This document shows, piece by piece, positions 854 through 28,682 of a DNA stretch of 32,694 nucleotides. The position numbers and the translations under genes are program-made. The notes beneath the pieces were generated by a model, which was not told the origin of the DNA, searched no databases, and saw only the letters and a list, made by a program, of their open reading frames with translations. Origin of the DNA: a virus; IMG/VR virus record IMGVR_UViG_3300031857_000805, positions 1 through 32,694 of that record. The stretch is one strand, 5' to 3'. Every line of letters starts with the position of its first letter. The stretch's first letter is position 1.

Positions 854-882
854 AACTATTCCTTGCAGGTTCAAGTTGTCAA

Positions 883-957
883 TGGCGGGTCTACCTGGAT
901 TCGAACCAGGAACAAAGGATTAGAAGTCCCTCGTGATATCCCTTTCACCATAGACCC
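883..957 (-). tRNA. tRNA-Arg (anticodon TCT), first copy
   Basis: Acceptor GGGTCTA/TAGACCC, D-stem GTG/CAC, anticodon loop CTTCTAA, T-arm CCTGG-TTCGAAT-CCAGG, and an encoded CCA at 883-885. The variable loop is four bases. It reads AGA. The sequence differs widely from the adjacent second TCT tRNA, so the pair is not a recent tandem duplication. Confidence 0.9.
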
Positions 958-961
958 AAAG

Positions 962-1037
962 TGGCGGGGCGTGAGGGAATCGAACCCCCACAAGGCAGGG
1001 TAGAAACCTGCTGCACTGTCCGTTATGCTAACGCCCC
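962..1037 (-). tRNA. tRNA-Arg (anticodon TCT), second copy
   Basis: Acceptor GGGGCGT/ACGCCCC, D-stem GCAT/GTGC, anticodon stem GCAGG/CCTGC with loop TTTCTAC, T-loop TTCGATT, encoded CCA at 962-964. The anticodon reads TCT by position. It is four bases from the other TCT tRNA, so the two are likely co-transcribed. Position 38 is C, which is unusual, so the identity deserves a check. Confidence 0.85.
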
Positions 1038-1098
1038 AAGATATCCGTCTTTCCGGATTGCCAACCCAGCGACATGATCGTGATGCCCTGAGTGCGAG

Positions 1099-1174
1099 TG
1101 GTAGGCGGGGTGGGGATTGAACCCACGACCAATCGGATATAAGCCGACCGCTCTGACCACTGAGCTACCCGCCT
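1099..1174 (-). tRNA. tRNA-Ile (anticodon TAT)
   Basis: Acceptor AGGCGGG/CCCGCCT, D-stem GCTC/GAGC, anticodon loop CTTATAT (anticodon TAT, reading ATA), T-arm GTGGG-TTCAATC-CCCAC, encoded CCA at 1099-1101. A TTGAAC/TATAGT promoter lies about 60 bases upstream. Confidence 0.9.
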
Positions 1175-1236
1175 GTAAGGGTGAGTGTCATTATTGAGCG
1201 GATTTAGCGGCATCCACGATTGGACCAGCATGATAG

Positions 1237-1264
1237 ACTATAAACAGGAAGGAGAAGTGTTCAA
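1237..1264 (-). promoter_or_regulatory. Sigma70-like promoter before the tRNA-Ile/Arg/Arg group
   Basis: On the minus strand TTGAAC (1259-1264) and TATAGT (1237-1242) are separated by 16 bases. The -35 overlaps the end of the thioredoxin gene, so the tRNAs can be transcribed independently of it. The same two hexamers recur before tRNA-Asn. Read by eye; the start site is untested. Confidence 0.55.
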
Positions 1265-1572
1265 AGGCTCCGCAACTTCTCAACCAATTCCCTCACTCCA
1301 GCTTCGTTGGCACCGACCAGAGTGTCGACCACCTTGCCGTTGTGGAATCCGATGACAGTTGGGACTGCCTGCACCTTCATCTTCTGGGAGAACTGCTCAC
1401 CGCCCTCGATGTCGACGTAGGCGAAGACGATGTCAGGAGTCTCGAAGGAGATCTTGTCAGTCTTCGGCTTCAGGACCTTGCAGGGTCCACACCAGGTGGC
1501 ACCGAACTGGACGATCACGTGGGTGTTGCCGTCGATGAGTTCCTGGATGTTGTCATCGTTTCGGGTAATCAT
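1261..1572 (-). CDS. trxA: Thioredoxin
   Basis: A complete 103-residue thioredoxin fold protein, the usual length of the family. The active site WCGPC is at residues 27-31 and the cis-proline motif AVPT lies in the second half. It reduces protein disulfides in the cytoplasm using a thioredoxin reductase, presumably the host's; phage versions commonly serve ribonucleotide reductase. Residues 1-20 lack a signal peptide. The start follows an AAGGAG ribosome-binding sequence, and the ATG overlaps the stop of the upstream membrane-protein gene by four bases, so the two are translationally coupled. No ribonucleotide reductase gene is in this window. Confidence 0.95.
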   Translation of the reverse strand: MITRNDDNIQELIDGNTHVIVQFGATWCGPCKVLKPKTDKISFETPDIVFAYVDIEGGEQFSQKMKVQAVPTVIGFHNGKVVDTLVGANEAGVRELVEKLRSL

Positions 1573-1847
1573 CTCTTCTCCTTGTATGGTGTGACCATTG
1601 ACATGAACTTGGCAGGATCTACCCTCAGGTATGTCCTCCCTGAGAATGGATTGTCCTCCTCAGTTCGAACCACCGTGACCTCATTTGTGAGAGGGTGATG
1701 ATCGACGACCTCAGCAACGTAACGTTTCATGTAGGTCCCGTATCCCCACTTGGTCCCGATAGCAGGAAACCTTGAGGCTCGACGACGCAGGAACCATGAC
1801 ACATGAGTCACTATTGCAACGATGAGGATCGAAGATAGAAGCAACAT
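1569..1847 (-). CDS. Small membrane-anchored protein of unknown function
   Basis: 92 residues beginning MLLLSSILIVAIVTHVSWFL, a single N-terminal membrane helix or uncleaved signal, followed by RRRAS, which would keep the rest in the cytoplasm by the positive-inside rule. The remaining ~65 residues (TYMKRYVAEVVDHHPL, then VTVVRTEEDNPFSGRTYLRV) look beta-rich. The ribosome-binding site is weak. The stop overlaps the thioredoxin start (ATGA), so the pair forms a small operon. Pairing with thioredoxin could suggest a redox partner, but this protein has no cysteine and I do not recognise a family. Confidence 0.75.
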   Translation of the reverse strand: MLLLSSILIVAIVTHVSWFLRRRASRFPAIGTKWGYGTYMKRYVAEVVDHHPLTNEVTVVRTEEDNPFSGRTYLRVDPAKFMSMVTPYKEKR

Positions 1848-1868
1848 GTGTCTTAAGTATGTCGTCCC

Positions 1869-2351
1869 TCAACCCTCGATCTGAAGCATTCCTACCGGAG
1901 TCTTCAGCTCAATTTCCCAACCGGAGAGGTCCGGAGAGGAAGAAAGTAGATCCTCAAGCTTCACTTGAAGCTGGGATGTGAGGGTGCAGAAACCTCGCTT
2001 GTAGTCGTACTTCTTCACCGAGAATTCGATTAGATCCTGAGAGTGAAAGTCCTCGGAGATCGCCTCGCTGAGGGATTCCGCATCGATGGGATCAGTCTCC
2101 TCATCGGCATCATCAGGATCATCGATGACGCATGCATCAACAAGCTCATCGAGGACCGACTGTTGCGTCTCACCACCGAGGTGGAACACAAGGTCACAGA
2201 ATCGACTTACGACGTCCGTGTTCCGCAAGGCATCCTCGACCTCGGTCTCATTGTGAAGAAACACATCGCAGCCGTCTGAGTATGTGAGGGTGACGACAGT
2301 GTCCATTGGAAGGTTGAGGCTCTTGAGCTTGTCGACGTATTCCTGACTCAT
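1869..2351 (-). CDS. Acidic hypothetical protein
   Basis: About 160 residues starting MSQEYVDKLKSLNLP. The ATG at 2351 follows GAGGA at good spacing; an ATG four codons upstream lacks a site. The middle is very acidic (DDPDDADEETDPIDAE), and the C-terminal third (FSVKKYDYKRGFCTLTSQLQV) reads as mixed alpha/beta. No membrane segment or known motif is visible. It lies between tRNA-Asn and the membrane-protein/thioredoxin pair on the same strand and may share their transcript. The function is unknown. Confidence 0.75.
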   Translation of the reverse strand: MSQEYVDKLKSLNLPMDTVVTLTYSDGCDVFLHNETEVEDALRNTDVVSRFCDLVFHLGGETQQSVLDELVDACVIDDPDDADEETDPIDAESLSEAISEDFHSQDLIEFSVKKYDYKRGFCTLTSQLQVKLEDLLSSSPDLSGWEIELKTPVGMLQIEG

Positions 2352-2370
2352 GTGTTTCCTCATTGTGAGG

Positions 2371-2445
2371 TGGCGCCTGAGGCTGGGAATGATCCAGCGA
2401 CCTAGCGGTTAACAGCCGCTTGCTCTACCACTGAGCTACTCGGGC
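2371..2445 (-). tRNA. tRNA-Asn (anticodon GTT)
   Basis: D-stem GCTC/GAGC, anticodon stem AGCGG/CCGCT with loop CTGTTAA, T-arm GCTGG-ATCATTC-CCAGC and encoded CCA at 2371-2373. The acceptor stem GCCCGAG/CTCAGGC has one C-A mismatch at the fourth pair, and the T-loop begins AT rather than TT. Both are mild departures from consensus but the cloverleaf is otherwise complete. Confidence 0.87.
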
Positions 2446-2457
2446 ATTTGATTTTGA

Positions 2458-2486
2458 ACTATACCAACTGTTTCAAGAATGTTCAA
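2458..2486 (-). promoter_or_regulatory. Sigma70-like promoter before tRNA-Asn
   Basis: TTGAAC (2481-2486) and TATAGT (2458-2463) on the minus strand with a 17-base spacer. It overlaps the 3' end of the GIY-YIG gene and gives tRNA-Asn its own promoter, which suggests the endonuclease gene was inserted upstream without breaking expression. Confidence 0.6.
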
Positions 2487-3129
2487 ACTTCATTTTGCGA
2501 CCCTTGATCCACCCTATTGACAACCAAGATTCTACTTCATCGACTGGGACTCTAATCGATCTCTTCTCTTCAAGAGAATGAAGCCAGACATTCCCAAAGT
2601 TTGAATTACCAGAACCTGATTGACGTTTCGAGTTTGCCTCACCAATCTTTCTCTTTGTCTCATCAGAGTGAGTTCTCCCATTCCAATCAGGAATGGGAAG
2701 TCTTCCTTCTGCATGCAACCTTTTCGAAGTCTCAGAGAGTCTGATACGTTGCCTTTCCCTAAACTCAGGGTCGGACCACGTCTTAGAGTTCATGGAACGT
2801 GCAGCTTTAGCATTCTTCAACCGTCGTAGTTCATCATTGGAATTGATAGCGTACCAGCTTCCGTTTCCACCCACAGTTAGATTGTAGGTGTCTTTTCTTT
2901 CCACCAATTCTGTGGTCACAATCTCTCTTTCGTATTCAAGAGCTTGTGAAGCAGTTTCAAAGAAACGAAGAATCTCTTTGCTAAAGTTCTCTGCGCCGTA
3001 TTTTGCAATCGCTCTCTTCAAGAGAGAACCGCTTCCCATGTAACCATCATCGACATACTCAGTTGAGTGCTTGCCAATGTAGAACATTCCGTTCTTGAGG
3101 TTAGTGATTTTGTAGACGTAGTGAACCAT
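2473..3129 (-). CDS. GIY-YIG homing-type endonuclease with NUMOD3-like motif
   Basis: 218 residues. The N-terminal domain (about 1-90) has HYVYKITN, a F-Y-I-G-K-H variant of the second GIY-YIG strand, and conserved YGAENF...EILRFF and TYNLTVGGNG segments typical of Seg-type phage endonucleases. The C-terminal half holds GRTHSDETKRKIGEANSKR, a NUMOD3-type DNA-binding motif, and ends in a basic tail. Such enzymes nick or cut specific sites and promote their own spread. It sits between tRNA-Gly and tRNA-Asn. No Shine-Dalgarno sequence is visible, but a TATAGT hexamer lies about nine bases before the ATG, so the transcript leader may be very short. Confidence 0.92.
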   Translation of the reverse strand: MVHYVYKITNLKNGMFYIGKHSTEYVDDGYMGSGSLLKRAIAKYGAENFSKEILRFFETASQALEYEREIVTTELVERKDTYNLTVGGNGSWYAINSNDELRRLKNAKAARSMNSKTWSDPEFRERQRIRLSETSKRLHAEGRLPIPDWNGRTHSDETKRKIGEANSKRQSGSGNSNFGNVWLHSLEEKRSIRVPVDEVESWLSIGWIKGRKMKFEHS

Positions 3130-3167
3130 GATCTAACTATACTCTGGTTCGACTCCCGTAAATAAGA

Positions 3168-3241
3168 TGGAGCTTCGCACCGGAATCGAACCGGTTTAGG
3201 TAGCTTGGAAGGCTACTGCCCAACCAATGGGCCAGCGAAGC
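3168..3241 (-). tRNA. tRNA-Gly (anticodon TCC)
   Basis: Acceptor GCTTCGC/GCGAAGC, D-stem GCCC/GGGC, anticodon stem GTAGC/GCTAC with loop CTTCCAA, a T-arm with TTCGATT and an encoded CCA at 3168-3170. It reads GGA, the dominant glycine codon in the genes of this window. Confidence 0.92.
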
Positions 3242-3248
3242 AAAGAAC

Positions 3249-3322
3249 ATGGAGACCCGGAGCTCGTACAGCGTCTGCCTTCCCGGTTCGGCTGTGCTCC
3301 CCATTTGCATGGGATACTGTAC
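3249..3322 (-). other. Structured spacer between tRNA genes, possible ncRNA or tRNA relic
   Basis: The 102 bases between tRNA-Gly and tRNA-Arg(CCT) carry several pairable segments on the transcribed minus strand. GTACAG (3317-3322) can pair with CTGTAC (3266-3271), CCCAT with ATGGG around a GCAA loop (3300-3313), and, as an alternative, ATGGGGA (3298-3304) can form a seven-pair stem with TCTCCAT (3249-3255). The latter resembles an acceptor stem, but only 42 bases separate the arms and no T-loop consensus is present. It may be a degenerate tRNA or a small structured RNA processed from the tRNA transcript. Confidence 0.35.
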
Positions 3323-3343
3323 ACCCGCCGTCCATATTCAAAG

Positions 3344-3420
3344 TGGCGTCCACGACAGGACTTGAACCTGTGACCCCCGGTTTAGGAAACCGGTGCTCTA
3401 TCCAGCTGAGCTACGAGGAC
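3344..3420 (-). tRNA. tRNA-Arg (anticodon CCT)
   Basis: D-stem GCTC/GAGC, anticodon stem CCGGT/ACCGG with loop TTCCTAA, T-arm ACAGG-TTCAAGT-CCTGT and encoded CCA at 3344-3346. The acceptor GTCCTCG/CGTGGAC has one T-T mismatch. It reads AGG, a frequent arginine codon here. It is the first tRNA behind the strong promoter at 3456-3484. Confidence 0.9.
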
Positions 3421-5431: not shown

Positions 5432-7225
5432 ATGAGACTTCACAGACTACAGCGAACGAACGCAAGGGTTGACTTCATACTGACAGAGTCACCGAAACTT
5501 GCCCCATTGATGCTGTTGACATCACTTGAAGCAAGGTCACCAGGACAGATCTTTGAGACCGATTGGCACCTCTTTCGTGCTTACATAAATTCAAATTCAT
5601 TGCTCCTGGAGCATGAGCTGAGGGCAGGAAAGATCGTTTATGAGGGCTTTCTCGATGCTCTTAGCGCAATGGCATCGAAGGTCGGTGGAGGAATTAAGGC
5701 AGCAGGTCAGGCTGTGATCGACTCTGCCAAGAAGGCAGCCGACACACTTGGCAATAACCTCAAAGCTTTTACCGATGTTGTAGGTGAGAAGATTGACGAC
5801 ATTATCGCTTGGGCAATCTCAAACCTCCCAGGTGGCAAGGCAGTTTATGACTTCTTGACCAACGCAGGAGAGAAGATAGAGAGTTTCTTGAACGAAGTTT
5901 TCAAGAGGGCCAAGAATACACTAGCTGATTTTGCTGAGAAGGGTCGACAGATACTTGTTGACAAAGTCATTGGACTTGTTGCAAAAGATGAAACTGTAAA
6001 GAAAGAAATTGCACAAGCTCTTGGTATTGACGAGCCACTGATCCAAAAGTGTGGTGAGGAGATAGAACAGGCAGAATCATCAGGTGAAGACCCAGATGGG
6101 CCGAATGCCGGAGACGAAGCTCAAACTGAATCTTATGCTCGCAAAAGAAAGATCATTAGAGAAGCAGCTCTAATTGGTTTCGATACCTTTGCAAGGAAGG
6201 AACTTCTTGGAGAAAGTTTGGTTGAGTCTACCTCTGTCTACAATTCAATGATCCTTGAAAGGGATCTCAAAGAATTCTTCGGATTCGGAGATGATGACGA
6301 TGAAGAAGAAGATGATGATGCCGACGATGACGGAACTCCTGATGATGAAGATGATGACGACGACAATGACGGCATACCAGATGATGAAGACGACGATGAC
6401 GACAATGACGGAACTCCTGATGATGAAGAAGGAGGAGGAGATGAGGAAGAAGAAGAGGAAGAGGAAGAAGAGGATGACTCTGCATGTGGTGTGAGGGATC
6501 TATTTGATAAGTCCACAATACCGCAATTCAAGCCAGCACAGGTCTACAAGAAAGGAGTGTCAGGTGTCAAGAATGCAATGACATTCCTGGGAACTATGCA
6601 GAAAATGTTCTCAGGTGACCTGACTGGAGGAGACCTCGAAGCTGCAGCTCGCGGAGCCCTTGCTACAGTTTTTGAAAAAGTGTTCGATATCTGGTACAAA
6701 CTGGGTTCAAAGAATGCTGCAAGATACTTTGAACCACTCCTAAAGAGTGAGCTGTTTCAAAGGTTCAAGAACGGTTTCATGACGGCCCTGGGTGGTATCA
6801 TGGGAATCGCAGCATCTGTAGATCTAGAGTTCGAAAAGGTAAAGAATTACATACTTGCGATAGTCGAAGGCTCAAAAGCAGGAAATTCTGAGACCAAGAC
6901 AGCGGACGGCAAGCCCTACTTTGAGAACATGATGATGCTGAATGGGGCTGCACTGCTGAAGGATCTTCTTCTCGGATTGATCAAAGGAAGTAATATTGAG
7001 AACGTAGTGAGGGGTCTAGTGGGTGACCCTATGGCAATCAAAAGATTCATCAAGACGATTATGAAGAGTCTCAAGGGCGCCGTGAAGAAATTCATAAATG
7101 CAAGTAAAGGTGAGATGTTGAAGAGATTCTTTGGCCAGCTCCCCTTCTCAGACATTATCATTAAGAATGCCGAGAAGCTTGTCGATCCAATCTTTGCAGG
7201 GATAGATAAACTGCTTCCTGATTGA
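5432..7225 (+). CDS. Acidic structural-type protein with Asp-rich repeat segment
   Basis: 597 residues. The first 200 residues are Ala/Lys-rich and helical (GIKAAGQAVIDSAKKAADTL), like internal head or tape-type proteins. Residues about 285-350 are almost purely Asp/Glu with repeats of DDDNDGIPDDE, matching the calcium-binding thrombospondin type-3 pattern. The C-terminal 240 residues are again helical with a Gly/Ala/Met-rich hydrophobic stretch (FMTALGGIMGIAASV). A KRKIIREAALIGF segment before the acidic tract resembles the tag motif of neighbouring genes. No Shine-Dalgarno sequence precedes the ATG; TATAAT ends nine bases upstream, so a leaderless message or a later start is possible. It is probably a virion component; the exact role is unknown. 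Confidence 0.8.
   Translation: MRLHRLQRTNARVDFILTESPKLAPLMLLTSLEARSPGQIFETDWHLFRAYINSNSLLLEHELRAGKIVYEGFLDALSAMASKVGGGIKAAGQAVIDSAKKAADTLGNNLKAFTDVVGEKIDDIIAWAISNLPGGKAVYDFLTNAGEKIESFLNEVFKRAKNTLADFAEKGRQILVDKVIGLVAKDETVKKEIAQALGIDEPLIQKCGEEIEQAESSGEDPDGPNAGDEAQTESYARKRKIIREAALIGFDTFARKELLGESLVESTSVYNSMILERDLKEFFGFGDDDDEEEDDDADDDGTPDDEDDDDDNDGIPDDEDDDDDNDGTPDDEEGGGDEEEEEEEEEEDDSACGVRDLFDKSTIPQFKPAQVYKKGVSGVKNAMTFLGTMQKMFSGDLTGGDLEAAARGALATVFEKVFDIWYKLGSKNAARYFEPLLKSELFQRFKNGFMTALGGIMGIAASVDLEFEKVKNYILAIVEGSKAGNSETKTADGKPYFENMMMLNGAALLKDLLLGLIKGSNIENVVRGLVGDPMAIKRFIKTIMKSLKGAVKKFINASKGEMLKRFFGQLPFSDIIIKNAEKLVDPIFAGIDKLLPD
6283..6480 (+). repeat. Purine-rich GAN trinucleotide tract encoding poly-Asp/Glu
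   Basis: About 200 bases of mostly GAT, GAC and GAA/GAG codons with an imperfect internal repeat (ACGGAACTCCTGATGATGAA occurs twice near 6329 and 6409, and a variant encodes GIPDDE between them). All frames are open here because of the low complexity. It is prone to slippage and to assembly errors. Confidence 0.8.
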
Positions 7226-7255: not shown

Positions 7256-7990
7256 ATGCGCATTGGAATCTTTGGCGGCGGATTCAAGCCGTTCACATCA
7301 GGTCACTTTTCGAAGCTTGCCCTTGCATCTGCTGAGAACGACAGGGTCCTCCTATTCTACGGTATTGCAGAGAGGAAGAAGGGATCCGACTACCTCTACA
7401 CGAAGGAGATGGCCGAGCAGGTCTTCGAGATCGCAAAGGGCGCAATCGAGAGGGAGATGCCCAACGTCACGGTCATCAAGGCAAAGCCCACCCCCATCGT
7501 CATGGCCTTCGAGGCAATTCAAGCATTTGCAGGTGTCCTCGATTCTCCAAAGTTCTTTCGCTACGCTGATTACGGAATCAACGTTGCAGACGTAGAAGAA
7601 GTCACCCTTTACGGTGACCAAGAGACTGTGAGTGAGTACATGGTCTACGCAGAAGATCCTGTGAAGGGACCAAGATACTACGGCACAACATTGCAGGACG
7701 GCACCCTTCACTTTGACACAGGAATGGTCGAAGGAGACGACTCCCGAATCATCAACGCTGTGATGAAGTTTCATCCCGGTGGAGACGCCGGTGAGATTCG
7801 TGCACGAAATCTCGTTAGAGGCTCAGAGGTGAGGGCATCGATTGCGTCCAGGAATCCTGAATCGATCACACGTTTCCTTCCTCCCATCTACACGCCAGAG
7901 GAGAAGACAGCTGTGATAGACATCCTCTATCGAGGGCTCTCAGAGAACACACTTCGGCGTGCCATCCGCGCAATGATTATGGTGGGATGA
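7256..7990 (+). CDS. Nucleotidylyltransferase of the HxGH/cytidylyltransferase-like superfamily
   Basis: 244 residues. The N-terminus MRIGIFGGGFKPFTSGHFSK carries the Rossmann-fold nucleotide-binding signature, with T-S-G-H in place of the usual H-x-G-H; Thr for the first His is a known variant. Near residue 195, VRGSEVRASI corresponds to the ISSTxxR motif. Both support adenylyl- or cytidylyl-transfer to a phosphorylated substrate (as in NMN, pantetheine or glycerol-phosphate enzymes), but the substrate is not readable. The last 20 residues, LSENTLRRAIRAMIMVG, match the tag found at the N-terminus of neighbours. The stop overlaps the next ATG by four bases, so it is coupled to the ligase-like gene. 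Confidence 0.85.
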   Translation: MRIGIFGGGFKPFTSGHFSKLALASAENDRVLLFYGIAERKKGSDYLYTKEMAEQVFEIAKGAIEREMPNVTVIKAKPTPIVMAFEAIQAFAGVLDSPKFFRYADYGINVADVEEVTLYGDQETVSEYMVYAEDPVKGPRYYGTTLQDGTLHFDTGMVEGDDSRIINAVMKFHPGGDAGEIRARNLVRGSEVRASIASRNPESITRFLPPIYTPEEKTAVIDILYRGLSENTLRRAIRAMIMVG

Positions 7991-9261
7991 TGATCAGACA
8001 GCTTATCCGAGAGATGCTAATGCTGGAGAACGGTCCCGAGGCCCACATCCTCAACTTCTATGAAGACCTCGACATGCCCCTCTCCGAGTTCAAGGAGGCC
8101 ATCAGGGCCCTCCTCGATGCCCAGGTGGAGGACGTCGAGGAGAAGATGGACGGTCAGAACCTCACCTTCACCGTGAGGAACGGAGAGGTGGAGACATTCT
8201 CCAAGGGAGCCTCATGGGCATCCGTCCAGCGTGGTGGAAAGAAGATCGCCGACTACGAGGCGCAGTACGCTGACCGTCCACAGGTGAGAGATGCTTTCAA
8301 GAGGGCGTATGCTTCACTTCAGGCCGCGGCAGATGTCGATCCGGGCCTCACGTCTCGGCTCTTCAGGGACGGCGGTGTGGTGGTGGAGTCACTCATGATG
8401 CTCCCAGAGAATCCCAACACCATTGTCTATGACAGGCCCACCATCCGCTTTGTGAGGGCCTACCCGATGGACCCGGCGCTCGGTGGTCAGGTGGACCAGG
8501 AGGCCTACCGGCAGTTCCTGGGCTCGGCCTCCTCCCTTGATGTTGCCGTTCCGATGGGTGAGGTTCCTATCTTGAGACTGCAGAAAGTCCTCAACTCGGA
8601 CCAGGTTGCCGGTGAACTCGAAGCTGAGTTAGATTCACTCATGGCCGAGGCCGGTGTCAACGATTCCTCCACTATGGGCGATCTCATCGTGGGACTCGTG
8701 AAGACCCGACTGGAGTCCGATGGAATGAGTCCTGATGTCGCCGCAAGGGTGGCAATTCGACTCGGTCGCGGTGAGAAGGCGGCGTTCTCTGCGAAGGACG
8801 CGAAGGCGGTGGGTCCCGGCGTCTGGGAGAAGGTCCAGGGAATGGAGTCCGGTCCATACGTCGACGAGGCCATCATCCCCATCGAGAGGATCCTCCAGAA
8901 GCTCGCAGTCCAGGTCTTCCGCAACCTGGAGTTCGTCCTCTCCTCCAACCGCACGGAGTCCGGTGATGCACTTCGATCCTTTGTCCGGCAGACCCGGGAC
9001 GCCGTGAAGGGTGGAAGGCTCATCGCTGACCCATCCCAGACCGAGTCCATCAGGGTTGCACTCGAGAGGATCGGTGACGAGGCGGCATTCGAGAAGGCGG
9101 TTGAGGGAATCGTCTTCCGGTGGAAGGGAAAGACCCGGAAGCTCACTGGACTCTTCACACCCATCAACAAGCTCCGCGGATTCTTCGCCTACGGTAAGAC
9201 TCCAGCGAGGATTTCAACAGAGTCTCGAAAGAGATACTTACCATTCGGAAGGATTGGATAA
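7987..9261 (+). CDS. Predicted ATP-dependent RNA/DNA ligase-superfamily protein
   Basis: 424 residues. EEKMDGQNLTF (Lys53) matches motif I (K-x-D-G), where the lysine is adenylylated. GVVVESLMMLP near 138 could be motif III, and EGIVFRWKGKTRKLTG near 373 matches motifs IV/V. The order and spacing fit the covalent nucleotidyltransferase family, but the long helical insert between III and IV is unusual and no known subfamily is recognised. The N-terminus MMIRQLIREMLMLENG is another version of the tag motif. It overlaps the upstream nucleotidylyltransferase gene by four bases and is followed after one base by a tagged small gene. RNA repair or end sealing is plausible but inferred. Confidence 0.7.
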   Translation: MMIRQLIREMLMLENGPEAHILNFYEDLDMPLSEFKEAIRALLDAQVEDVEEKMDGQNLTFTVRNGEVETFSKGASWASVQRGGKKIADYEAQYADRPQVRDAFKRAYASLQAAADVDPGLTSRLFRDGGVVVESLMMLPENPNTIVYDRPTIRFVRAYPMDPALGGQVDQEAYRQFLGSASSLDVAVPMGEVPILRLQKVLNSDQVAGELEAELDSLMAEAGVNDSSTMGDLIVGLVKTRLESDGMSPDVAARVAIRLGRGEKAAFSAKDAKAVGPGVWEKVQGMESGPYVDEAIIPIERILQKLAVQVFRNLEFVLSSNRTESGDALRSFVRQTRDAVKGGRLIADPSQTESIRVALERIGDEAAFEKAVEGIVFRWKGKTRKLTGLFTPINKLRGFFAYGKTPARISTESRKRYLPFGRIG

Positions 9262-9262
9262 C

Positions 9263-9658
9263 ATGAGAATCACAGAGTCACAGCTTAGAAAGATCGTCCG
9301 TGAAGAGATCCTGAGGGAATCGTTGTACGATGATGACATCATGAGGAACATTCCCGGACGTCCGTGGACCGACACCTTCAAGCAGAAGGAGAGTGATGAC
9401 TGGCGTGATCCATACAGTCCTGTGTGGAAGCAGAAGGTGTTCTTCAAGCACGGAGATGCGGTGAGGATCAACCTCAACGTCAACATGCCGAAGGGTGCAC
9501 CTGGAAGAATCCATTCCGACAAGACCAAGGCCGCCAATGGAATGGAGGGTGTCGTGGTTCCTGGACCGGAAGGTCGAGAGCAGTACCGTCACCACTACGT
9601 GAAGCTGGAGGATGGAACACAGATGCTCCTTCATGATGTGGACATCGAGCACGTATAG
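9263..9658 (+). CDS. Tagged small protein with SH3/KOW-like C-terminal domain
   Basis: 131 residues. It opens with MRITESQLRKIVREEILR, the clearest form of the recurring amphipathic motif, then a polar linker, then a domain with FFKHGDAVRINLNV, GMEGVVVPGPEG and HHYVKLEDGTQMLLHDVDIE, which follows the small-barrel plan seen in many minus-strand genes here. It therefore joins the two genome-specific patterns in one protein. The ATG at 9263 is one base after the upstream stop; an open frame extends further back without a sensible start. No catalytic motif is seen. A virion-associated or packaged role is an inference from the tag. Confidence 0.82.
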   Translation: MRITESQLRKIVREEILRESLYDDDIMRNIPGRPWTDTFKQKESDDWRDPYSPVWKQKVFFKHGDAVRINLNVNMPKGAPGRIHSDKTKAANGMEGVVVPGPEGREQYRHHYVKLEDGTQMLLHDVDIEHV

Positions 9659-9666
9659 GAGACAAC

Positions 9667-9888
9667 ATGAGAATCACAGAGTCAATGCTTCGCAGCATAG
9701 TCGCAGATGAGGCCAAGAAGTTCAAGAGGGGTAAGAGAGTCAACGAAGCAATGAGTGCTTTTGCCAACGAAGACTTGAACAATGCACTGCACGAATGGTA
9801 CTCGGCAATGGCAGAAGAATTAGGTCACGAGAGAGCACTTGACGAACTACAGAACGAGGTGATGGGATTCATCGAGGAGTACAGATAG
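9667..9888 (+). CDS. Small tagged alpha-helical protein
   Basis: 73 residues beginning MRITESMLRSIVADEAKKF. The first 18 bases of the gene are identical to the first 18 of the gene at 9263, after which the two diverge. The rest (EDLNNALHEWYSAMAEELGH, ALDELQNEVMGFIEEYR) is strongly helical and acidic, probably a helical hairpin. A TAGGAG site lies six bases before the ATG. The stop codon is directly followed by the ATG of the next gene, so translation is likely coupled. No known family is recognised. Confidence 0.8.
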   Translation: MRITESMLRSIVADEAKKFKRGKRVNEAMSAFANEDLNNALHEWYSAMAEELGHERALDELQNEVMGFIEEYR

Positions 9889-10701
9889 ATGGGAGGAGAG
9901 GCTTTCAAGGGACCCGATGGGACCCCACTTACGACAACAATCAAGCAGTCCGAGGTCGGTCCTACCCTTGACTCTCTCCTGAGAGAAGTTCTCCAACCCA
10001 TTGGAATCAAGTCATTCGTACCACTGGGCTCCACAGGCAAGAAGGCGGTGTCAGGTGACCTTGACATTGCAATCGGACCTGTACCGACTTCTGACCCAAA
10101 GTCACTGAAGGCCTTCAAGGATGCACTGCTTCAAGGAATTCAGGCATCCGTAGGTGCTGACAAGGCAAAATTGGTTGGGCAGAACATTGGAATCATGTTC
10201 CCAATCGTTGGATCTCCCAACAACTTCGTGCAGGTCGACCTCATGCTGTCATCATCACCTGAGAACACAGGGTGGCTGATGTCAGGCACTGGTTCCGGCG
10301 TGAAGGGTGTCTACAGGAACCTCATGCTGGCCTACATTGCAAAGCTGCGGTCCGAGGCAAATCCTGGCACAAAGATCACAATCTCATTCCCCGGCGGCGT
10401 CCAATCCATGAAGGATGGGCAGGTCGTTGTTCCAAGAACAGAGGATCCTTCGACAATTGTGGCCACCCTCGGATTGAATGCGGATCCATCAGAGATCAAC
10501 ACCTTCGAGGAGTTGGTATCCATATTGGCAATGGACCCCGAGTTATCAGGGAAGCTTGCAGGATTCGAGACCTACATCGCAAGGTACATCCAAGATCCAC
10601 ATACTTCCATTGAGGCGATGAAATCGATATCAGCCCTTAAAAATGCGCTCGGCCTCATGGAGACCGTGCGCAAGGCGATCAGGAAGTCAATCCTCAGGTG
10701 A
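9889..10701 (+). CDS. Polymerase-beta-type nucleotidyltransferase
   Basis: 270 residues. LGSTGKKAVSGDLDIAIG (about 46-63) is the Gly-Ser...Asp-x-Asp motif of the pol-beta nucleotidyltransferase superfamily, and FVQVDLMLS (about 109-117) supplies the third carboxylate, so the metal-binding triad is complete. Such enzymes add nucleotides to RNA, antibiotics or proteins; the substrate cannot be told. The C-terminus ends LGLMETVRKAIRKSILR, another match to the tag motif, here at the C-terminus. The gene begins immediately at the stop of the preceding gene and ends by converging with the minus-strand gene at 10694, overlapping it by eight bases. Confidence 0.85.
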   Translation: MGGEAFKGPDGTPLTTTIKQSEVGPTLDSLLREVLQPIGIKSFVPLGSTGKKAVSGDLDIAIGPVPTSDPKSLKAFKDALLQGIQASVGADKAKLVGQNIGIMFPIVGSPNNFVQVDLMLSSSPENTGWLMSGTGSGVKGVYRNLMLAYIAKLRSEANPGTKITISFPGGVQSMKDGQVVVPRTEDPSTIVATLGLNADPSEINTFEELVSILAMDPELSGKLAGFETYIARYIQDPHTSIEAMKSISALKNALGLMETVRKAIRKSILR

Positions 10702-11227
10702 TCTGAATGTCCTTCACGGACACTTGGAATGTCGTGCACCAGGGATCCTTGGACTCTGCATCAAGCTCATCAAGGGCAATTGCAACAGGCACTGCCTTGA
10801 ATGTCCACGTCTCAAACTGATTGTCATCTCGATCAGTGAGTCGAAGGGTTACCTTCCTCTCCTTTGGAGCAGACAACCATCCAAAGATGGTGGCATTGAC
10901 TCCCTTACCAGGGAGGAACTCAAATACGACCTGACCAGAATTCTGCTCACCAGGTGTGAAGACAGGAAACTTCATACCCGATGCCGTGAGCTTCTGGAGG
11001 CCGTCAATATCTACCTCCCAGACAGGGGAGCGATCCTCCTCATCATCTTCCTCCATCTCGCCCAGCTCCTCCTCCGTGAGGACCATGAGGCCCGGTGGGA
11101 GGTGCTGCATCATCTCTCCTGCCTGTGCGGCAAGAGCCTGTTGGATCTGCTGAACGTGGACAGGATCCACCAGCAGAGGTAGGCCCTGGTCCTTCTCCTG
11201 AAGCTCAACCTTCTTCTTGCGTGGCAT
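10694..11227 (-). CDS. Hypothetical protein with acidic linker
   Basis: 177 residues starting MPRKKKVELQEKDQGL. This ATG has GGAG at good spacing; ATGs further upstream do not. Residues about 30-60 are Gln/Ala-rich and helical (VHVQQIQQALAAQAGEM), followed by an acidic run (EEELGEMEEDDEEDR) and a beta-rich C-terminal domain (VTLRLTDRDDNQFETWTFKAV). It could be a phage structural or assembly protein, but no family is recognised. It overlaps the upstream small gene by 23 bases and shares its operon. Confidence 0.75.
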   Translation of the reverse strand: MPRKKKVELQEKDQGLPLLVDPVHVQQIQQALAAQAGEMMQHLPPGLMVLTEEELGEMEEDDEEDRSPVWEVDIDGLQKLTASGMKFPVFTPGEQNSGQVVFEFLPGKGVNATIFGWLSAPKERKVTLRLTDRDDNQFETWTFKAVPVAIALDELDAESKDPWCTTFQVSVKDIQIT

Positions 11228-11411
11228 TCTCATTCTCCGTTGCTCGCTTAATTGCATCAAGGAACTCCACCTGGGCGCGCTCTTCGTCCCACTCGGAGAT
11301 CCCCCACAGATTCATCAGAAACTGCTTCGTCTCATCGTCAAACTCTAGAAGAAGACGGGCAGACCCATCAGGGTTTTCAATGACCTCAACTACCTTGACC
11401 TGGTGTGGCAT
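11205..11411 (-). CDS. Small hypothetical protein
   Basis: 68 residues starting MPHQVKVVEVIENPDGSARL. The ATG at 11411 follows GAGGAG by six bases; an upstream in-frame start at 11429 has none. The sequence reads as beta strands (VKVVEVI, ARLLLEF) then a helix (ETKQFLMNLWG, ERAQVEFLDAIKRA). No motif or membrane segment is visible. It is translationally overlapped with the downstream gene. Confidence 0.75.
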   Translation of the reverse strand: MPHQVKVVEVIENPDGSARLLLEFDDETKQFLMNLWGISEWDEERAQVEFLDAIKRATENENATQEEG

Positions 11412-11450
11412 AAATCTCCTCTGAATCAATCATACAGGAATCGACAGTCT

Positions 11451-12248
11451 TTACACAGACTTCTTTGCACGAGGCTTGCGAACCTTGGGGAAGATAAGCT
11501 TCTCCATGTTGACTGCATGGACTTCCCCATTGACGAGGGCATCCACCATCAGCATCCCGTGGTGAGAGAAGGAGCGATTGCCGAGAACAAGGGCGTCGAG
11601 AGCCTGGATGGACTCATCGCGACGCCCCTGCCAGCCAGGAAGGTGCCAGGGGTTGACCTGACAGAGAGCACCGGTCTTCTCAGGAGCTGAATCCCACAGG
11701 GCAACCACGGCCTTGAACTGGGAGCGAAGGAACTCGACATCCTCCACCTCAACCTCATTCTGCTGGATGATCTTGTTGATGGTCCGATCGATTCGATTGG
11801 AAGTCGCAGGCTTGTTACCCCAGTAGTACTGGGACATGTTGATCTTGCGACGGTAGAGGCCATTTGCGAGTGTGCGGAGTTCGTCGTCGACCGCCACAGA
11901 AGTGATAGGACGCTGAGAACCGACCATGATGCGCTCGGCATATGCCTTCTGACGGTCGGTGAGATCCCGCCCCTGAAAGATCTGGGCAGCAAAGCTCCGG
12001 AGAGTGTCAGCCTCGTCCTTTCGGAGGCAGGATTCTGCGACAGTGAGGTAGTCCTTCGCCTTGTTCCAGGAGGGCCAGGTGTTGGGCTCACCCTTCTCCA
12101 TGAGGTCACGGAGGATGTTCACCCCATTGCCTCGCGGCTGCTTACCTTCGGCAGCGAGGGATGCGAGGAATCCACCGGACCAGGTGCCACCGAGGCCTGC
12201 ATCCTTGTACGCCTGGGAGAGGGTGCGAACCTTGTCGAGATCGAACAT
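11451..12248 (-). CDS. Hypothetical protein with basic C-terminus
   Basis: 265 residues starting MFDLDKVRTLSQAYKDAG behind a strong AAGGAGG site. The protein is mainly helical with many Trp/Arg/Lys residues, and the C-terminus is basic (FPKVRKPRAKKSV), which would suit nucleic-acid binding. No catalytic motif is recognised. An extended -10-like sequence (TGTGGTACAGT, 12266-12276) lies upstream. The function is unknown. Confidence 0.8.
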   Translation of the reverse strand: MFDLDKVRTLSQAYKDAGLGGTWSGGFLASLAAEGKQPRGNGVNILRDLMEKGEPNTWPSWNKAKDYLTVAESCLRKDEADTLRSFAAQIFQGRDLTDRQKAYAERIMVGSQRPITSVAVDDELRTLANGLYRRKINMSQYYWGNKPATSNRIDRTINKIIQQNEVEVEDVEFLRSQFKAVVALWDSAPEKTGALCQVNPWHLPGWQGRRDESIQALDALVLGNRSFSHHGMLMVDALVNGEVHAVNMEKLIFPKVRKPRAKKSV

Positions 12249-12286
12249 TGATCCTCCTTACATTTAGACTGTACCACACTAAGTGG

Positions 12287-12517
12287 TCAATTGGAAGGAC
12301 TATTTTGATCTTCTTCAACAATCTTTAGGCGGTCTGCCCTGTACCAGTGAAGTGAATCTGCCTCATTCGGATACACAACAAGAATCTCATCCGGAGCATC
12401 ATACATCCCAGGACAGGGTGACTCTCGAACCTCCACAACGATGCCAGGGGTACCGGCAATTCCAGTCCTGTCAACGACCAGGGAGCCTACTGTTGGAAAC
12501 CTTTCATTCACAATCAA
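12287..12517 (-). CDS. Small SH3/KOW-like barrel protein (predicted), start uncertain
   Basis: About 76 residues. The recognisable part is FPTVGSLVVDRTGIAGTPGIVVEVRES...EILVVYPNEADSLHWYRADRLKIVEE, with the G-x-L-V opening and closing W-Y-R-x-D-x-L of the small-barrel group. No ATG lies just before it. A TTG at 12517 (GGA six bases upstream) or a GTG at 12511 are the best starts; using an ATG much further up would overlap the divergent gene at 12554. The function is unknown. Confidence 0.62.
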   Translation of the reverse strand: MIVNERFPTVGSLVVDRTGIAGTPGIVVEVRESPCPGMYDAPDEILVVYPNEADSLHWYRADRLKIVEEDQNSPSN

Positions 12518-12553: not shown

Positions 12554-13492
12554 ATGGGAATGAAGTACACAGTCACTGAAAATAGACTGCGATATGCAGT
12601 CAGACATGCGCTCCTGAATTCTGGTCACAACAAGTGGACCTTGAACGAGGGTTTCATCTCCATGTTCTTTGGAGCTCTCTCAAATGCATACAAGGACCTT
12701 GCGTCTCAGTACAAGCAGGATCAACAGAGAGAGGTTGCAGCAAAGTTTCTACTCACAAGGAAGAACTTGGTAGCAGCGATTGGTGCCGAGATGGAAGCCA
12801 AAGGCCTCAGCAGCCAGCGTGGAGGCATGGGATCCGACAAGGGGCAGTTCAGTCAGTACAGGGGATTCGCTGAGTATGACTGGTCTGACAAGGAGTCAAA
12901 CGCCGTCATCACTGAAGTCATGACAAACAGGATGAATGAATCCCTCCCAAGGGCAACCAGAACTATCAATGCTGTGGCCGCAATGCCAGCAATTCCAGGA
13001 ATCACAAAGGACGGGCAGTCACCTGTCTCAGACTCAAAAGATGAGGGTGAGCAAGCAGACGCAATTAAAAAGGAAGCCCAGACGCAAAATAAGACGATTG
13101 ATGATGCTGCTCAAGCGGTAACTTTTCCTTTCGGTGACATTGCGACCCTATTTTCAGGGACTTCAACATACGATGACCTTGAGATGCTGATCAAGGACGC
13201 AGGATTCGGCTTCACACCTGTCGACTTCCTGCACAAGGTCAAGCACATTGACACCATTGTAAGAAATGCGAACTATGGTTCAGCAAAATTCCCACCAGAA
13301 ATCTCTTCACTTGTGAAGAAGGCCTGCCTCACCCTAAGAAGAGATGCTGAAACTGGTCTCAGCAAGTACGAGAAGCAAGGTAACTACAAGGAAATGTCAC
13401 CGCTTGCTCTTCCATCCGAAGCAATTCAGGGAAAAGCAGCTCCTCAAACAGGAGGAGAGTCGGCTGAGGGTTCAGAGACTGCTGAGAAGTGA
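12554..13492 (+). CDS. Tagged protein, possible virion component
   Basis: 312 residues. It starts MGMKYTVTENRLRYAVRHAL, a version of the recurring tag with T-E-N-x-L-R and R-x-x-L, followed by helical sequence (MFFGALSNAYKDLASQYKQD), a Ser/Asp/Gln-rich linker (about 150-185) and a helical C-terminal domain. The last 30 residues are low-complexity. The ATG at 12554 follows GGAAA; an ATG two codons later is also possible. It is the only plus-strand gene between 10701 and 15421, flanked by minus-strand genes, and overlaps the convergent gene by 21 bases. The function is unknown; the tag links it to the 7.2-10.7 kb cluster. Confidence 0.78.
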   Translation: MGMKYTVTENRLRYAVRHALLNSGHNKWTLNEGFISMFFGALSNAYKDLASQYKQDQQREVAAKFLLTRKNLVAAIGAEMEAKGLSSQRGGMGSDKGQFSQYRGFAEYDWSDKESNAVITEVMTNRMNESLPRATRTINAVAAMPAIPGITKDGQSPVSDSKDEGEQADAIKKEAQTQNKTIDDAAQAVTFPFGDIATLFSGTSTYDDLEMLIKDAGFGFTPVDFLHKVKHIDTIVRNANYGSAKFPPEISSLVKKACLTLRRDAETGLSKYEKQGNYKEMSPLALPSEAIQGKAAPQTGGESAEGSETAEK

Positions 13493-15894: not shown

Positions 15895-16564
15895 TCCATG
15901 TGTGGTAAAGTCCGGTGAGGTAGTCAGCATAGACGACCCAAGGCTCAGTGACACAGGTTGCACAATTGAGGCTGGTGTCATTATTAGGCCACCGGTGGAT
16001 GAAACGACTGTCGCAAAGGTCGAGACACCTGCTCAGATTCTGGAGCAGGTAGCTCAAGTGCAGGCACCTCGGAAACCCAAGGCAAAGAAGAAGGAAGAAC
16101 CAAAGGTCGAAGCAGTCAAGGAGGTTGCACCTGTTGTAAAGAAGGCGTCAGAAACTTCTAAACCAGCGACAAAGGCGCAGGTATCTGTGCAGCCTCCTGA
16201 ACCAAAGGAAGAAACTTACCTTGGAATGAGCCCTGAGATGGCAACTGTCGCTGCTGTCGGAGCTGTAGCAGCCGTTGGTGGGGCGGTCGCAACATCAACA
16301 ATGAGTGGTTTCAGTGCCATACAGGCAAAGCTCACTTCCCTCTTCGGATCAAAGGCGACTGCAACAGTAGCAGGTGGTGCAGTTGTAACTGCCGGCATGA
16401 TTGTTGCCGTGAAGGCCCTTGAGTCTAAGATGGGCAGCCTCGAAAAGGACATGAACAAGGCAAAAGAGGAGGTCGGTGGTGCCGCCTCCTCGATCGATCG
16501 AATCGATGCCTTACTGAGCCGAATTGGCGGAGACAACGACGACAAACTCGACCCTTCGGTTTAG
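15887..16564 (+). CDS. Two-membrane-helix protein with Lys/Pro/Glu linker
   Basis: 225 residues starting MADPCVVKSGEVVSIDDPRL. Residues about 60-145 are a Lys/Pro/Glu/Val-rich low-complexity linker. Two Ala/Gly/Val-rich hydrophobic segments follow (MATVAAVGAVAAVGGAVATS and ATVAGGAVVTAGMIVAVKAL, about 155-205), then a short coiled coil. This could be a membrane-spanning or holin-like protein. It is coupled to the upstream gene (eight-base overlap) and its last 54 bases overlap the end of the convergent 1238-residue gene. The function is unknown. Confidence 0.75.
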   Translation: MADPCVVKSGEVVSIDDPRLSDTGCTIEAGVIIRPPVDETTVAKVETPAQILEQVAQVQAPRKPKAKKKEEPKVEAVKEVAPVVKKASETSKPATKAQVSVQPPEPKEETYLGMSPEMATVAAVGAVAAVGGAVATSTMSGFSAIQAKLTSLFGSKATATVAGGAVVTAGMIVAVKALESKMGSLEKDMNKAKEEVGGAASSIDRIDALLSRIGGDNDDKLDPSV

Positions 16565-19500
16565 AGCCTGCCCTTCAGGTGTCCCAGAGGTGTCGAGTGG
16601 TGATGTGTCTCCCTTGCCCTCGATTGATACCCTTGAGGCATCAACACCCTTGGTAATCAGGTAGTCGGCAGCTGCCTGCGCCCTTTCAATCGACAGTTCC
16701 TCCGGGTGTTTGAACTGCATCTCTGAACTGTCGGCATATCCAACTACCTTCACTCCATAGCCTGGTCTGAGATTTAGGACTGTCCACACTCCGTCAAGGG
16801 TTGCCTGTGACTTGGTGTTGAGCTTGGTGTCACCTGGCATGAATCCAATGCCGACCTCCTGCTTTGGTGGTGAAGTAACATCAGGCTTTGCGGGAACAAC
16901 TATCACGATCGGCTGTGGTGCCTCGACAGGTGCATTGCATTCACACGAAGGCGGCGGTGGCATCATTGGAGCAACTTCAGGAACCTCATCATCTGGGCCA
17001 AATGTGATCTGGGCCAGTGCCTGCCAGTCACCGTCACCAGGCTGGCGAATGATTCCCTTGCTGATTGCAGCACCTATTGAGAAGTTACCGATCGTCCAAT
17101 CCAAGGACGAACCCACGAACAGAGATGAAACAGGCTCCTCACCGATATTGTGAAAGGCCTGGGAATCTACACCAAACGTGAAGTCGCCAAGAGCGTATGA
17201 ACCTGCCGCTGTAATGTACGGTCCAGATCCAAGCTCATAACCCTCAAGGTTGACATTCGGATAGACCATGAATCCTGCTCCGAGCAGTCCTCCGATGTTT
17301 CCGAACTGCATCTCTCCACCGATCTCAAGGGTCGATGCCCAACCTGGATGTGAGACACCGAGGCCTGCTCCTGTAGGTGCAACGACCGCGACGTCTCCAT
17401 AGACTCCTATTCCATCCGTGCTGAATGCCTTCGTGCTGGCCCTTGCACCACCCCACATGTCACCGAGCCTTGCGACTCCGTCGTTTCCCAAGGTTGCTGG
17501 AACACCGAAGTCTACCGAGAAGTGTTCGAATGTGTAGCGATTGGTGGTCCAGCCCCAGTACACATCATCTATGACCACGACTTCCTCGCCGTCGGGATTG
17601 ATGTATGACAGGGGATCTGTAACAACACCTCCCACAATCGCGCTCTCGTTTCCGAGGAACCTTGACTCACCACGGGGTGGAAGTGGAACAACGCTCATCT
17701 CAGGAACCTCACCACCAGAAGCTCCCATTAGAAGAGGAAATCCGAGAAGGAGAGAAAGAATGCCCCTGCGTCTCGAAGCGAGGACGGCTCCAAGGGCAAC
17801 CAAGATGATGCTTCCACCACTTCCACCACCGGTCGTCGAGCAACCGCTGCCTGGCACATAGGATCCCTTACTTGGTGACCTGTTGTCAGTGTCAACAGTG
17901 TCTTCGGTATCAGTTTCAGTGCCTGAATCAGTTCCCGTCTCAGTGTCCGTGTCAGTTCCACTGTCTCCCGTATCAACAGTACCGCTGTCACCTGTGTCTG
18001 TTGGCCTATCATCAATCGGATCGCAAGCGTCTCCAATTCCGTCACCATCTGCGTCTGCCTGGTCATTCGCAAGTCCAAGGCAGTTGTCAGAATCGTCCGG
18101 AACAAGGTCACCGTCGACGTCAGCGTCGCAAGCATCACCAATGTCATCCGAATCGAAGTCATCCTGACTTGGGTTTGAGACGTCGACGCAATTGTCTAGC
18201 ATTGCGCAGACACCGTCGATGTCCGCATCGTTCAGGTTGTCAGCAAGGCACAGATCCTCAGAGTCGCAGATGCCATCGGCATCATCATCATTGAGAGGAT
18301 CGAGTGGACATGGGTCTGAATCTGCACACTTGCCATCAGAGTCGATGTCATCCTCAGGATCCAGAGGACATAGATCGCAACCATCGGCAACTGCGTCGAG
18401 ATCAGAGTCCACGAGGTCATTCGAGTCTGGGCAGGCATCAACATCACCGCAGACTCCGTCCTCGTCAGAGTCGTTGTCTGCATCATTTGGACATGTGTCC
18501 ACATCTCCACAGATATCGTCAGAGTCTGCGTCATTGAGCGGATCAAGTGGGCATTCGTCTACAGATTCGCAGGCTCCATCACCGTCCCTGTCATCCAGGG
18601 AGTCATTGGGGCATGTGTCCACATCTCCACAGGTTCCGTCTCCATCGACGTCGTTGAGCTCATCAAGGGGACAGGTGTCACAGTCGTCTGCTAGACCGTC
18701 ATCATCGGAATCCATCGTATCGTCGAAACCTGGACAGATATCGGCTGAGTCACATGATCCGTCGGCATCTGAGTCATCAGTCAAGTCATCCGGACAGGTG
18801 TCGCATCCGTTGGGGACCGCATCACCGTCCGAGTCAAGGGAGTCATCAGCGCCTGGACATATGTCGTCAGAGTCACAGGATCCGTCGGCATCTGAGTCGC
18901 CGAGGGAGTCGAATGGGCAGGTGTCGCAGCCATCAGGTGTGAAGTCCGCATCTGTGTCGAGTCCGTCATCAGCACCGGGACAGATGTCGTTGTTACCGCA
19001 CACACCGTCCGAGTCTGCATCGTTGAGAGGGTCAACTGGGCATGCATCGCAGCCGTTCGGAATGCTGTCAGCATCAGAATCCACAAGGTCGCTGTGACCG
19101 GCACACACATCGACATCACCGCAGACACCATCGCTGTCGACATCATCGAGTGGATCGTTCGGGCATGTGTCACAACCGTCAGGTATGAGATCCAGGTCAG
19201 CATCTAGAAGGTCATCGTGACCTTCACAGATATCAAGTTCTCCACAGATTCCATCAGCGTCTGCATCGTTGAGTGGATCGGATGGGCAGGTGTCTGAGAC
19301 GTCTGGTGTGCCGTCACCATCAGCGTCAGGCTCAACAGGAGCCTCGGCACAATCTGTGGCTGCCGTTATCGCAGTGTCATCAAGTGCGTAGATAACTCGA
19401 AAGCTCTCAACCTGTCCTGGCGACATGTCACCGATCCTGACCGAGAGTGAGATGGCAGCATCATCGGACACAGAGCTTCCGACCGCTGAATAAAACCCAG

Positions 19501-27281: not shown

Positions 27282-27282
27282 C

Positions 27283-27741: not shown

Positions 27742-28047
27742 CTATCTGCCTACAATTTTGTCTGAGTTTTCCGAGCCTGATCCCTCAGATATGAAGAGCA
27801 TGAGACCACCTTTGCCAAGGATCAGGCGATGCCACGAATCCTTTGGAATGTGGAACTTGTCACCGGGATTCAGTTCAACCGGTAGCGAATTCTCAAATTG
27901 AAACTTCCAGCCCCTGCCTTCAATCACTGTCACAGTCCTATCACGCTCGTCGCGATGCCAGGTAAGTTCCGACTCATTGAGAGATCCTGAGAACTCTCTG
28001 ATGAATTCGGACTTGGTGAGAATCTCGTCGTTGAAGGGCCTTACCAT
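27742..28047 (-). CDS. Cupin-fold protein
   Basis: 101 residues. LTWHRDERDRTVTVIEGRGWKFQFENSLPVELNPGDKFHIPKDSWHRLI is a cupin signature: His-x-Asp/Glu at the first motif, then P-G-D-x-F-x-I-P-x-x-x-x-H-R at the second. The His residues could hold a metal. Similar short cupins are common in marine T4-like phages without known function. The start overlaps the preceding stop by seven bases. A Ser/Gly tail ends the protein. Confidence 0.87.
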   Translation of the reverse strand: MVRPFNDEILTKSEFIREFSGSLNESELTWHRDERDRTVTVIEGRGWKFQFENSLPVELNPGDKFHIPKDSWHRLILGKGGLMLFISEGSGSENSDKIVGR

Positions 28048-28682
28048 CGTCCCTTGAATTTAAGGCCAAGCTGCTTCTTGTATCTGTGAATGTTGCATGC
28101 CCACCAGCGAGCCTTCCACCTGGGACCGGGGGTGTCACAGTTGTGCCGTGCAAGGAATGACTTCACTCTTGCAGGACTGTGTGTCTTGATCTTGACACCA
28201 GGCTGTCCGAAACCGACCTTGACAACGTTTCCCTTGTCGTTTTTCACATACACAGAGAACTTTGCCTTGCCTCCGCCACGCATCGGCTTGTTGAGGTCAA
28301 CCTTTCGACCCTTGTACTCGGCCTCTGTGACCGGACCAGGAACAAGATCCTCCCAGTGCTCGAAAGGAAGGTCAAGTGGGACCATCCTGCCCTGGTACTC
28401 TCCCCACTCACCGAGGTTGGTCTCAAGGATAAACTTGTCATCCGAGTCCACACTGAGGTGACCCCTCCTCCAGAGGGACCTTGCCTCTCGGATCATGTCG
28501 AGGTGTGAGTCAGACCCAAACCTGAATATTGTCTCACGGAGCGGGAGCCCCATCTCAACGTGATATTGCAAACCTTCCGACAACCCACCGCCCAAAGATA
28601 CAGGTGGGCCAGGAACTGTTGGGTCAAGCTCCCTTTGTACTAGGGTCCTGATTGCTTCTTCTGTTAGGACGTTGGTCTTCAT
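28041..28682 (-). CDS. DUF5872-like phage protein with tag-like N-terminus
   Basis: 213 residues. The C-terminal half contains KFSVYVKNDKGNVVKVGFGQ, PARVKSFLARHNCDTPGPRW and KARWWACNIHRY, which I recognise as a conserved block of many T4-like phages (DUF5872-type), often near head and core genes. The N-terminus MKTNVLTEEAIRTLVQREL fits the recurring tag pattern (T-E-x-x-I-R-x-L-V-x-x-E-L). The start overlaps the previous stop as ATGA. A structural or packaged role is likely but unproven. Confidence 0.82.
   Translation of the reverse strand: MKTNVLTEEAIRTLVQRELDPTVPGPPVSLGGGLSEGLQYHVEMGLPLRETIFRFGSDSHLDMIREARSLWRRGHLSVDSDDKFILETNLGEWGEYQGRMVPLDLPFEHWEDLVPGPVTEAEYKGRKVDLNKPMRGGGKAKFSVYVKNDKGNVVKVGFGQPGVKIKTHSPARVKSFLARHNCDTPGPRWKARWWACNIHRYKKQLGLKFKGRW

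Follow-up and report, generated by a model that had tools for sequence, protein, structure and literature searches.

The closest described systems place N-terminal propeptides on proteins of the phage head. In phage T4, the gp21 protease cleaves after L/I-X-E, and the propeptides of its capsid-targeting sequences (CTSs) comprise 10-19 residues (PMC9026906). The T4 internal proteins Ip1-3 have nothing but their leader in common; once injected, they inhibit type IV restriction enzymes (PMC12373910). The inner-head (ejection) proteins of phages SPN3US and phiKZ likewise carry N-terminal propeptides, which are cut off by the prohead protease after x-x-E (PMC5694885). Here we describe a short N-terminal tag on unrelated proteins of environmental phages, which very probably represents a T4-type capsid-targeting propeptide that would direct both packaging and cleavage of its passengers.

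The analysis started from a 32,694-base fragment of an IMG/VR virus (hereafter the window). Among its genes are one for a topoisomerase subunit resembling T4 gp52 and one for an ATP-dependent DNA ligase of the phage type. By gp52, its nearest named records are uncultured phages of 462-642 kb (48-54% identity). Seven tRNA genes (three Arg) lie at 206-3420, with a GIY-YIG-like gene at 2473-3129. On the minus strand, an adenosylhomocysteinase-like gene stands beside an S-adenosylmethionine-synthetase-like gene (24625-27332 and 29388-30173, assigned by reading), and with a DNA methyltransferase-like gene nearby the pair may form a SAM-recycling module. The same strand encodes, at 16511-20227, a protein of 1238 aa that combines acidic repeats of the calcium-binding type with a MYXO-CTERM-like segment and ends in an OmpA-like region; such a protein is unusual for a phage and is perhaps host-derived.

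The genes beginning at 9263 and 9667 both open, at their ATGs, with ATGAGAATCACAGAGTCA, a sequence that has no third copy in the window. Identity between the two loci extends three bases upstream (ACA), giving 21 bp in total versus 18 bp within the genes, and only about 0.008 repeated 18-mers would be expected by chance in 32.7 kb, even before both copies are required to lie at start codons. The original prediction that the 18 shared opening bases lead into unrelated proteins was confirmed: the 18-base identity is exact, and BLASTP aligns only residues 1-15 (11/15 identical) and detects no similarity beyond. We trained a tag HMM on independent IMG/VR sequences and ran it on the window frames; the 9263 and 9667 proteins scored 31.2 and 17.8 bits, respectively. 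No other window frame passes, and the sole leftover match (6.2 bits, E=4) falls inside a short frame.

The gene at 9263-9658 (plus strand) encodes a 131-aa putative cargo protein whose tag or propeptide, MRITESQLRKIVREEILRE, spans 9263..9319. The predicted cut follows residue 19 at L-R-E|S (ILRE|S), leaving a predicted mature body of 112 aa (9320..9658, including the stop codon) that has no match in Pfam or PHROG. An orthologue in the related record G020 is 92% identical and retains both the tag and the site ILRE|S. The AlphaFold model of this protein places a helix on the tag, but its low confidence (pLDDT 37) makes it too poor for a fold search. The second gene (9667-9888, plus strand) encodes a 73-aa putative cargo protein with the tag MRITESMLRSIVADEAKKFKRGKRVNE at 9667..9747, a predicted cut after residue 27 at V-N-E|A (RVNE|A) and a predicted mature body of 46 aa plus stop (9748..9888), again without a family match in Pfam or PHROG. 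Orthologues in G006 and G043 (42-47% identity) keep the tag and the site as RINE|S and RLNE|S.

Genes resembling a cytidylyltransferase, an RNA ligase (weak PF09414, E=0.002) and a nucleotidyltransferase surround the tagged genes at 7256-10701, and these neighbors are conserved in G006 at 68-97%. A bare 17-codon tag with its own stop (MRITESQLRKIVREEYR*) occurs in G006 (L172, 15139-15192) directly 5′ of the nucleotidyltransferase-like gene of the type found at 9889 in the window. It overlaps the start of that gene out of frame, as a decayed or frameshift-joined tag might.

Three further openings, at 28682, 12554 and 7987, had been proposed as relatives of the tag. The first belongs to a minus-strand gene in which tag and linker (MKTNVLTEEAIRTLVQREL...GGGLSE|G) occupy 28575..28682, with a predicted cut after residue 36 at L-S-E|G (GLSE|G) and a predicted mature body of the phrog_7595 type (E=2.2e-9) at 28041..28574. 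This N-terminus scores below the tag HMM threshold; we nevertheless regard it as a divergent true member because homologues of the same protein bear canonical tags (L077, MKITEAKLKQIIKEE; L042, MKITESKLKSIIEEE; also L084). Alignments with its relatives mostly begin near residue 34, and 13 readable relatives retain [LIV]xE|G where the body starts. Its AlphaFold model (pLDDT 65, pTM 0.38) is too poor for a fold search; it predicts a helix at residues 8-19, on the tag, with low confidence at 23-32. In L225 and L272, relatives of the protein form the last part of a longer open frame, and [LI]xE|G marks the junction.

The opening at 12554 is a plausible member, since the pattern fits and a site follows: the candidate divergent tag MGMKYTVTENRLRYAVRHALLNSGHNKWTLNE|G spans 12554..12649 on the plus strand, with a predicted cut after residue 32 at L-N-E|G (TVTENRLRYAVRHALL...TLNE|G). 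A search of IMG/VR returned no relatives that could back its membership. The opening at 7987 (MIRQLIREMLML) was rejected as a member, as it neither matches the HMM nor carries an [LI]xE|[AGS] site; its relative in G043 aligns from residue 16 on only. A C-terminal LSENTLRRAIRAMI on the 7256 protein does not score as a tag, and real C-terminal tag-like matches are few. The 597-aa product of 5432, which includes a long acidic stretch, has L-T-E|S at residue 19 (5432..5488, plus strand) with no recognizable tag; it has no tag HMM match and no relatives in IMG/VR, and is a weak candidate for a head-protease site.

Beyond the window, the tag has the consensus MK[LI]TExxLRxII+EE[LI]xxL(N/x)E|[AGS]. 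The strict degenerate pattern M-[KR]-x-[TS]-E-x-x-L-[RK]-x-I-[IV]-x-E-E matches at least 119 stretches in IMG/VR, giving at least 144 tagged ORFs. The same pattern finds only two stretches in 84,980 GTDB species genomes of bacteria and archaea (257 billion bases), both on MAG contigs of about 8 kb, and the HMM does not confirm one of these (L187). The tag is thus nearly confined to phages. A looser pattern matches 41 of 49 virus records, whereas a reversed control matches none (0/49). With the HMM we gathered 198 tagged proteins with non-redundant bodies, most of them small (median 121.5 aa, quartiles 96-190). The richest record, G019 (113 kb), has 22 matches scoring 8 bits or more; almost every one stands at the start of a gene, and they cluster at 17.4-38.6 kb beside a protease gene at 15.0 kb; G020 and G043 have 10 matches each. 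The profile search proposed earlier therefore places the motif on many other proteins.

The original prediction had overlooked a protease-type site that lies downstream of the tag. The strict site [LI]xE[AGS], with E at residues 17-40, is present in 87 of the 198 tagged proteins versus 16.4±3.8 in shuffled sequences (maximum 27), and [LI]xE in 158 of 198 versus 67.7±5.8, although these shuffles overstate independence somewhat because tagged members share tag ancestry. A downstream block of the same width (residues 67-90) has the strict site in only 10 of 142 proteins. Among close kin of the window, 22 of 33 tagged proteins carry it (2.4±1.4 shuffled), compared with 37 of 397 untagged ORFs, and the tag-end tripeptides of these kin (ILRE|S, ILKE|A, LLRE|T) recur in the major capsid protein (MCP) motifs described below. 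The P1 residue lies at positions 18-33 (18, 19, 21, 22, 27 or further), and this variable spacing argues against the site being just the terminal part of a rigid motif. The conserved LNE may owe part of its conservation to inheritance along with the tag, not to selection for cleavage. About half of the tagged proteins lack the strict site, and one fifth lack even [LI]xE at 17-40.

Phages with the tag encode head machinery of the expected type. Peptidase S77 (PF03420) was detected in 21 of 49 records, many of which are fragments. Of the 15 records above 110 kb that bear the tag, 14 have it; the exception, G001 (154 kb), has no PF03420 match in a record that may be incomplete. The 32.7-kb window itself contains neither a prohead protease nor an MCP, and both are inferred from its kin G020 and G043. 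The MCPs of tagged phages carry ENQA..[LV][LIV][RKQSD]E|[ASTV] near residue 60. This motif resembles L-[RK]-E|[AS], the same motif that follows the tags, which suggests that the S77 protease may cut the MCP at a tag-type site. In G043 (L157, 88364-90076) and LR756508 (156507-158102), the protease gene is seemingly interrupted by an intein-like insert, with open frames of 570-576 aa that hold two separated S77 pieces. Frames of 635-769 aa occupy the protease position in the huge-phage records LR756500, LR756502, LR756504 and LR745206.

The tag also reaches into the head operon. In G020, the gene order is terminase, portal, a 285-aa protein, the protease, a 134-aa protein, 157-aa and 91-aa proteins whose N-termini resemble the tag, further frames, a scaffold-like acidic protein of 613 aa (10554-12395) and then the MCP. 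The 91-aa family forms a gradation from MKLTSTVLKRIIAEE (G025) to LTPALLRKIVLEE (G020), and its neighbor has a similar helix followed by L[SAM]E|G or IIE|G. Nine of 15 records have a tag of at least 8 bits no more than 2.5 kb from the protease, and in G004 and G015 a tagged protein is 85-88 bp from the protease match; four of the 15 protease neighborhoods are without any tag match.

The site enrichment, the S77 protease, the MCP motif, the head-operon N-termini and the near confinement to phages all favor the T4-like capsid targeting that was originally put forward from the shared openings alone. Docking is a generic role of amphipathic helices, and the tag might instead attach its passengers to some other structure of the phage or the host (membrane, replication compartment or RNA polymerase), the protease-like site being coincidental. 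The absence of the strict site from about half of the tagged proteins fits this explanation, which nonetheless is improbable, as it leaves the enrichment, the protease, the head-operon placement and the MCP motif unexplained. Docking to a shared scaffold, which had been offered as a separate alternative, is really the capsid-targeting model itself because T4 CTSs act by binding the prohead core.

It is also conceivable, at rather long odds but less so than docking elsewhere, that the tag marks only proteins of the prohead core or scaffold, whose passengers would shape the head and then be degraded or leave without delivery to the host. In single-tag genomes, the tagged protein beside the protease does resemble a core component, and T4 gp67, gp68 and gp22 are core proteins (PMC9026906). 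In multi-tag genomes, however, the bodies are diverse and variably present, resembling an accessory cargo island rather than a fixed set of structural genes, and a core role would have to accommodate the approximately 22 tagged genes of G019.

Comparison of related loci reveals exchange of cargo at the tags. DNA similarity between the window and G006 spans gene 7987 and ends 45 bases into the 9263 tag, while similarity to G020 spans gene 9263 and ends 36 bases into the 9667 tag. Because similarity breaks inside the tags, different bodies stand behind the same tag at the same locus. Two further loci, L102 and L118, are 99.96-99.97% identical on either side of a 280-bp deletion in L118, where the start of one L102 tag is fused in frame to the remainder of the tag of the next gene, with the loss of one cargo gene. 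The junction has an exact repeat of about 19 bp. Misassembly is unlikely to account for the deletion, since a repeat of this length is shorter than the usual assembly k-mers; the same joined form is present in G019. Over all locus pairs, five distinct breakpoints among 77 block ends fall at tags, which make up 1.5% of the bases, an enrichment that is suggestive only because the locus pairs are not independent.

Such recombination, together with the near-identical DNA among the tags of one genome, would be expected of a nucleotide-level element (a translation enhancer or recombination sequence) whose encoded peptide is incidental. This explanation is very hard to sustain, as the conserved tag residues stay fixed while using several synonymous codons inside single genomes, and the same peptide appears in many divergent phages. 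The helical hydrophobic moment of residues 5-20 is 0.402, compared with 0.285 for shuffled sequences. Judged by its sequence, then, the tag works as a peptide signal that forms an amphipathic helix.

On the capsid-targeting model, the helix TExxLRxIIxEEL of these large T4-like phages would bind the assembling prohead core and bring its passenger into the head. At head maturation, the S77 (gp21-type) protease would cut after the [LI]-x-E that lies beyond the helix and free the passenger, which would then probably be ejected into the host along with the DNA. The tag itself probably derives from, or is common to, a core protein of the prohead whose gene lies next to that of the protease. Duplication has probably carried it onto a large number of small proteins unrelated to one another, after which recombination between copies would swap or delete cargo while the label stays in frame. 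We lean towards the view that this is an undescribed packaging-address system, widespread among T4-like phages of the environment, and that the tag serves in it as head label and recombination joint at once. If so, the injected arsenal would be large (about 22 proteins in one record) and exchangeable, with each protein still labeled.

By analogy with T4, it is reasonably likely that the packaged cargo acts in the host. Among the 150 longest tagged bodies, Pfam gave isolated matches only (LRR, DUF285, LPD11, DUF5824, EF-hand and Sec15), and PHROGs gave 17 families, all of unknown function except for one tape-measure match. Since T4 Ip1-3 are injected anti-restriction proteins, anti-defense is the leading guess for what the cargo may do, and the few Pfam matches make the tagged proteins a concentrated source of unknown, possibly anti-defense proteins. 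As the T4 internal proteins illustrate, the survival of a phage in the face of host defense can depend on the cargo that it injects. To our knowledge, nobody knows which proteins are packaged in most phages. Tag and cutting site together could serve as a rule for listing packaged proteins from sequence alone, and the tag could thereby reveal the injected proteins of uncultured phages. The tag is also a candidate fusion tag for loading heads, and its copies illustrate a way of reshuffling the cargo repertoire without loss of frame.

We found no description of the tag in open-access papers, and a search of phage records for cultured tagged phages with proteomics returned none. A tblastn search of 50,697 phage records, T-even phages included, with two 22-aa tag consensuses and one 38-aa tagged N-terminus recovered only LR756508, an uncultured phage of 484 kb in which the pattern finds five tag copies. 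There were no copies in 11 other complete or large records that include the nearest cultured relatives, and Acj9 (Straboviridae) has no pattern match. Judged by protease, the cultured phages most closely related are Flavobacterium phage vB_FspM_immuto and Microcystis phage Mel-JY01. They share the order terminase-gp20-protease-scaffold-gp23 and have the MCP motifs VSE|A and ISE|A, but their complete records are without any tag copy. In immuto, a protease-adjacent protein (L189, 10916-11998) with ..HFIAE|A resembles a T4-like internal-protein leader.

The SPN3US and phiKZ proteins resemble the tagged proteins in bearing N-terminal propeptides on packaged products, packaging here being predicted from the genes. 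However, several of their propeptides exceed 100 residues, their protease is of the S80 type and they have no single common motif (PMC5694885). The tag sites at residues 18-33 and the S77 protease set the new tag apart from this long-propeptide class. The T4 and T-even CTSs of IPI-III and Alt are closer: a short N-terminal propeptide is common to otherwise unrelated small proteins, as on the 198 bodies gathered here; it ends in L/I-x-E for a gp21-type protease, as in most tagged proteins; and the accessory cargo is variable (PMC9026906; PMC12373910). The S77 protease and the MCP motif accompany the tag in G020, G043 and other tagged records outside the window. Unlike the T-even CTSs, the new tag is typically about 18-30 residues long versus 10-19, occurs on about 22 genes in one record and also on head-operon proteins, and was found in none of the cultured phages searched. 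What is new here, as read from these genomes, is a CTS-like tag with a sequence other than that of T4 and a much larger set of predicted cargo.
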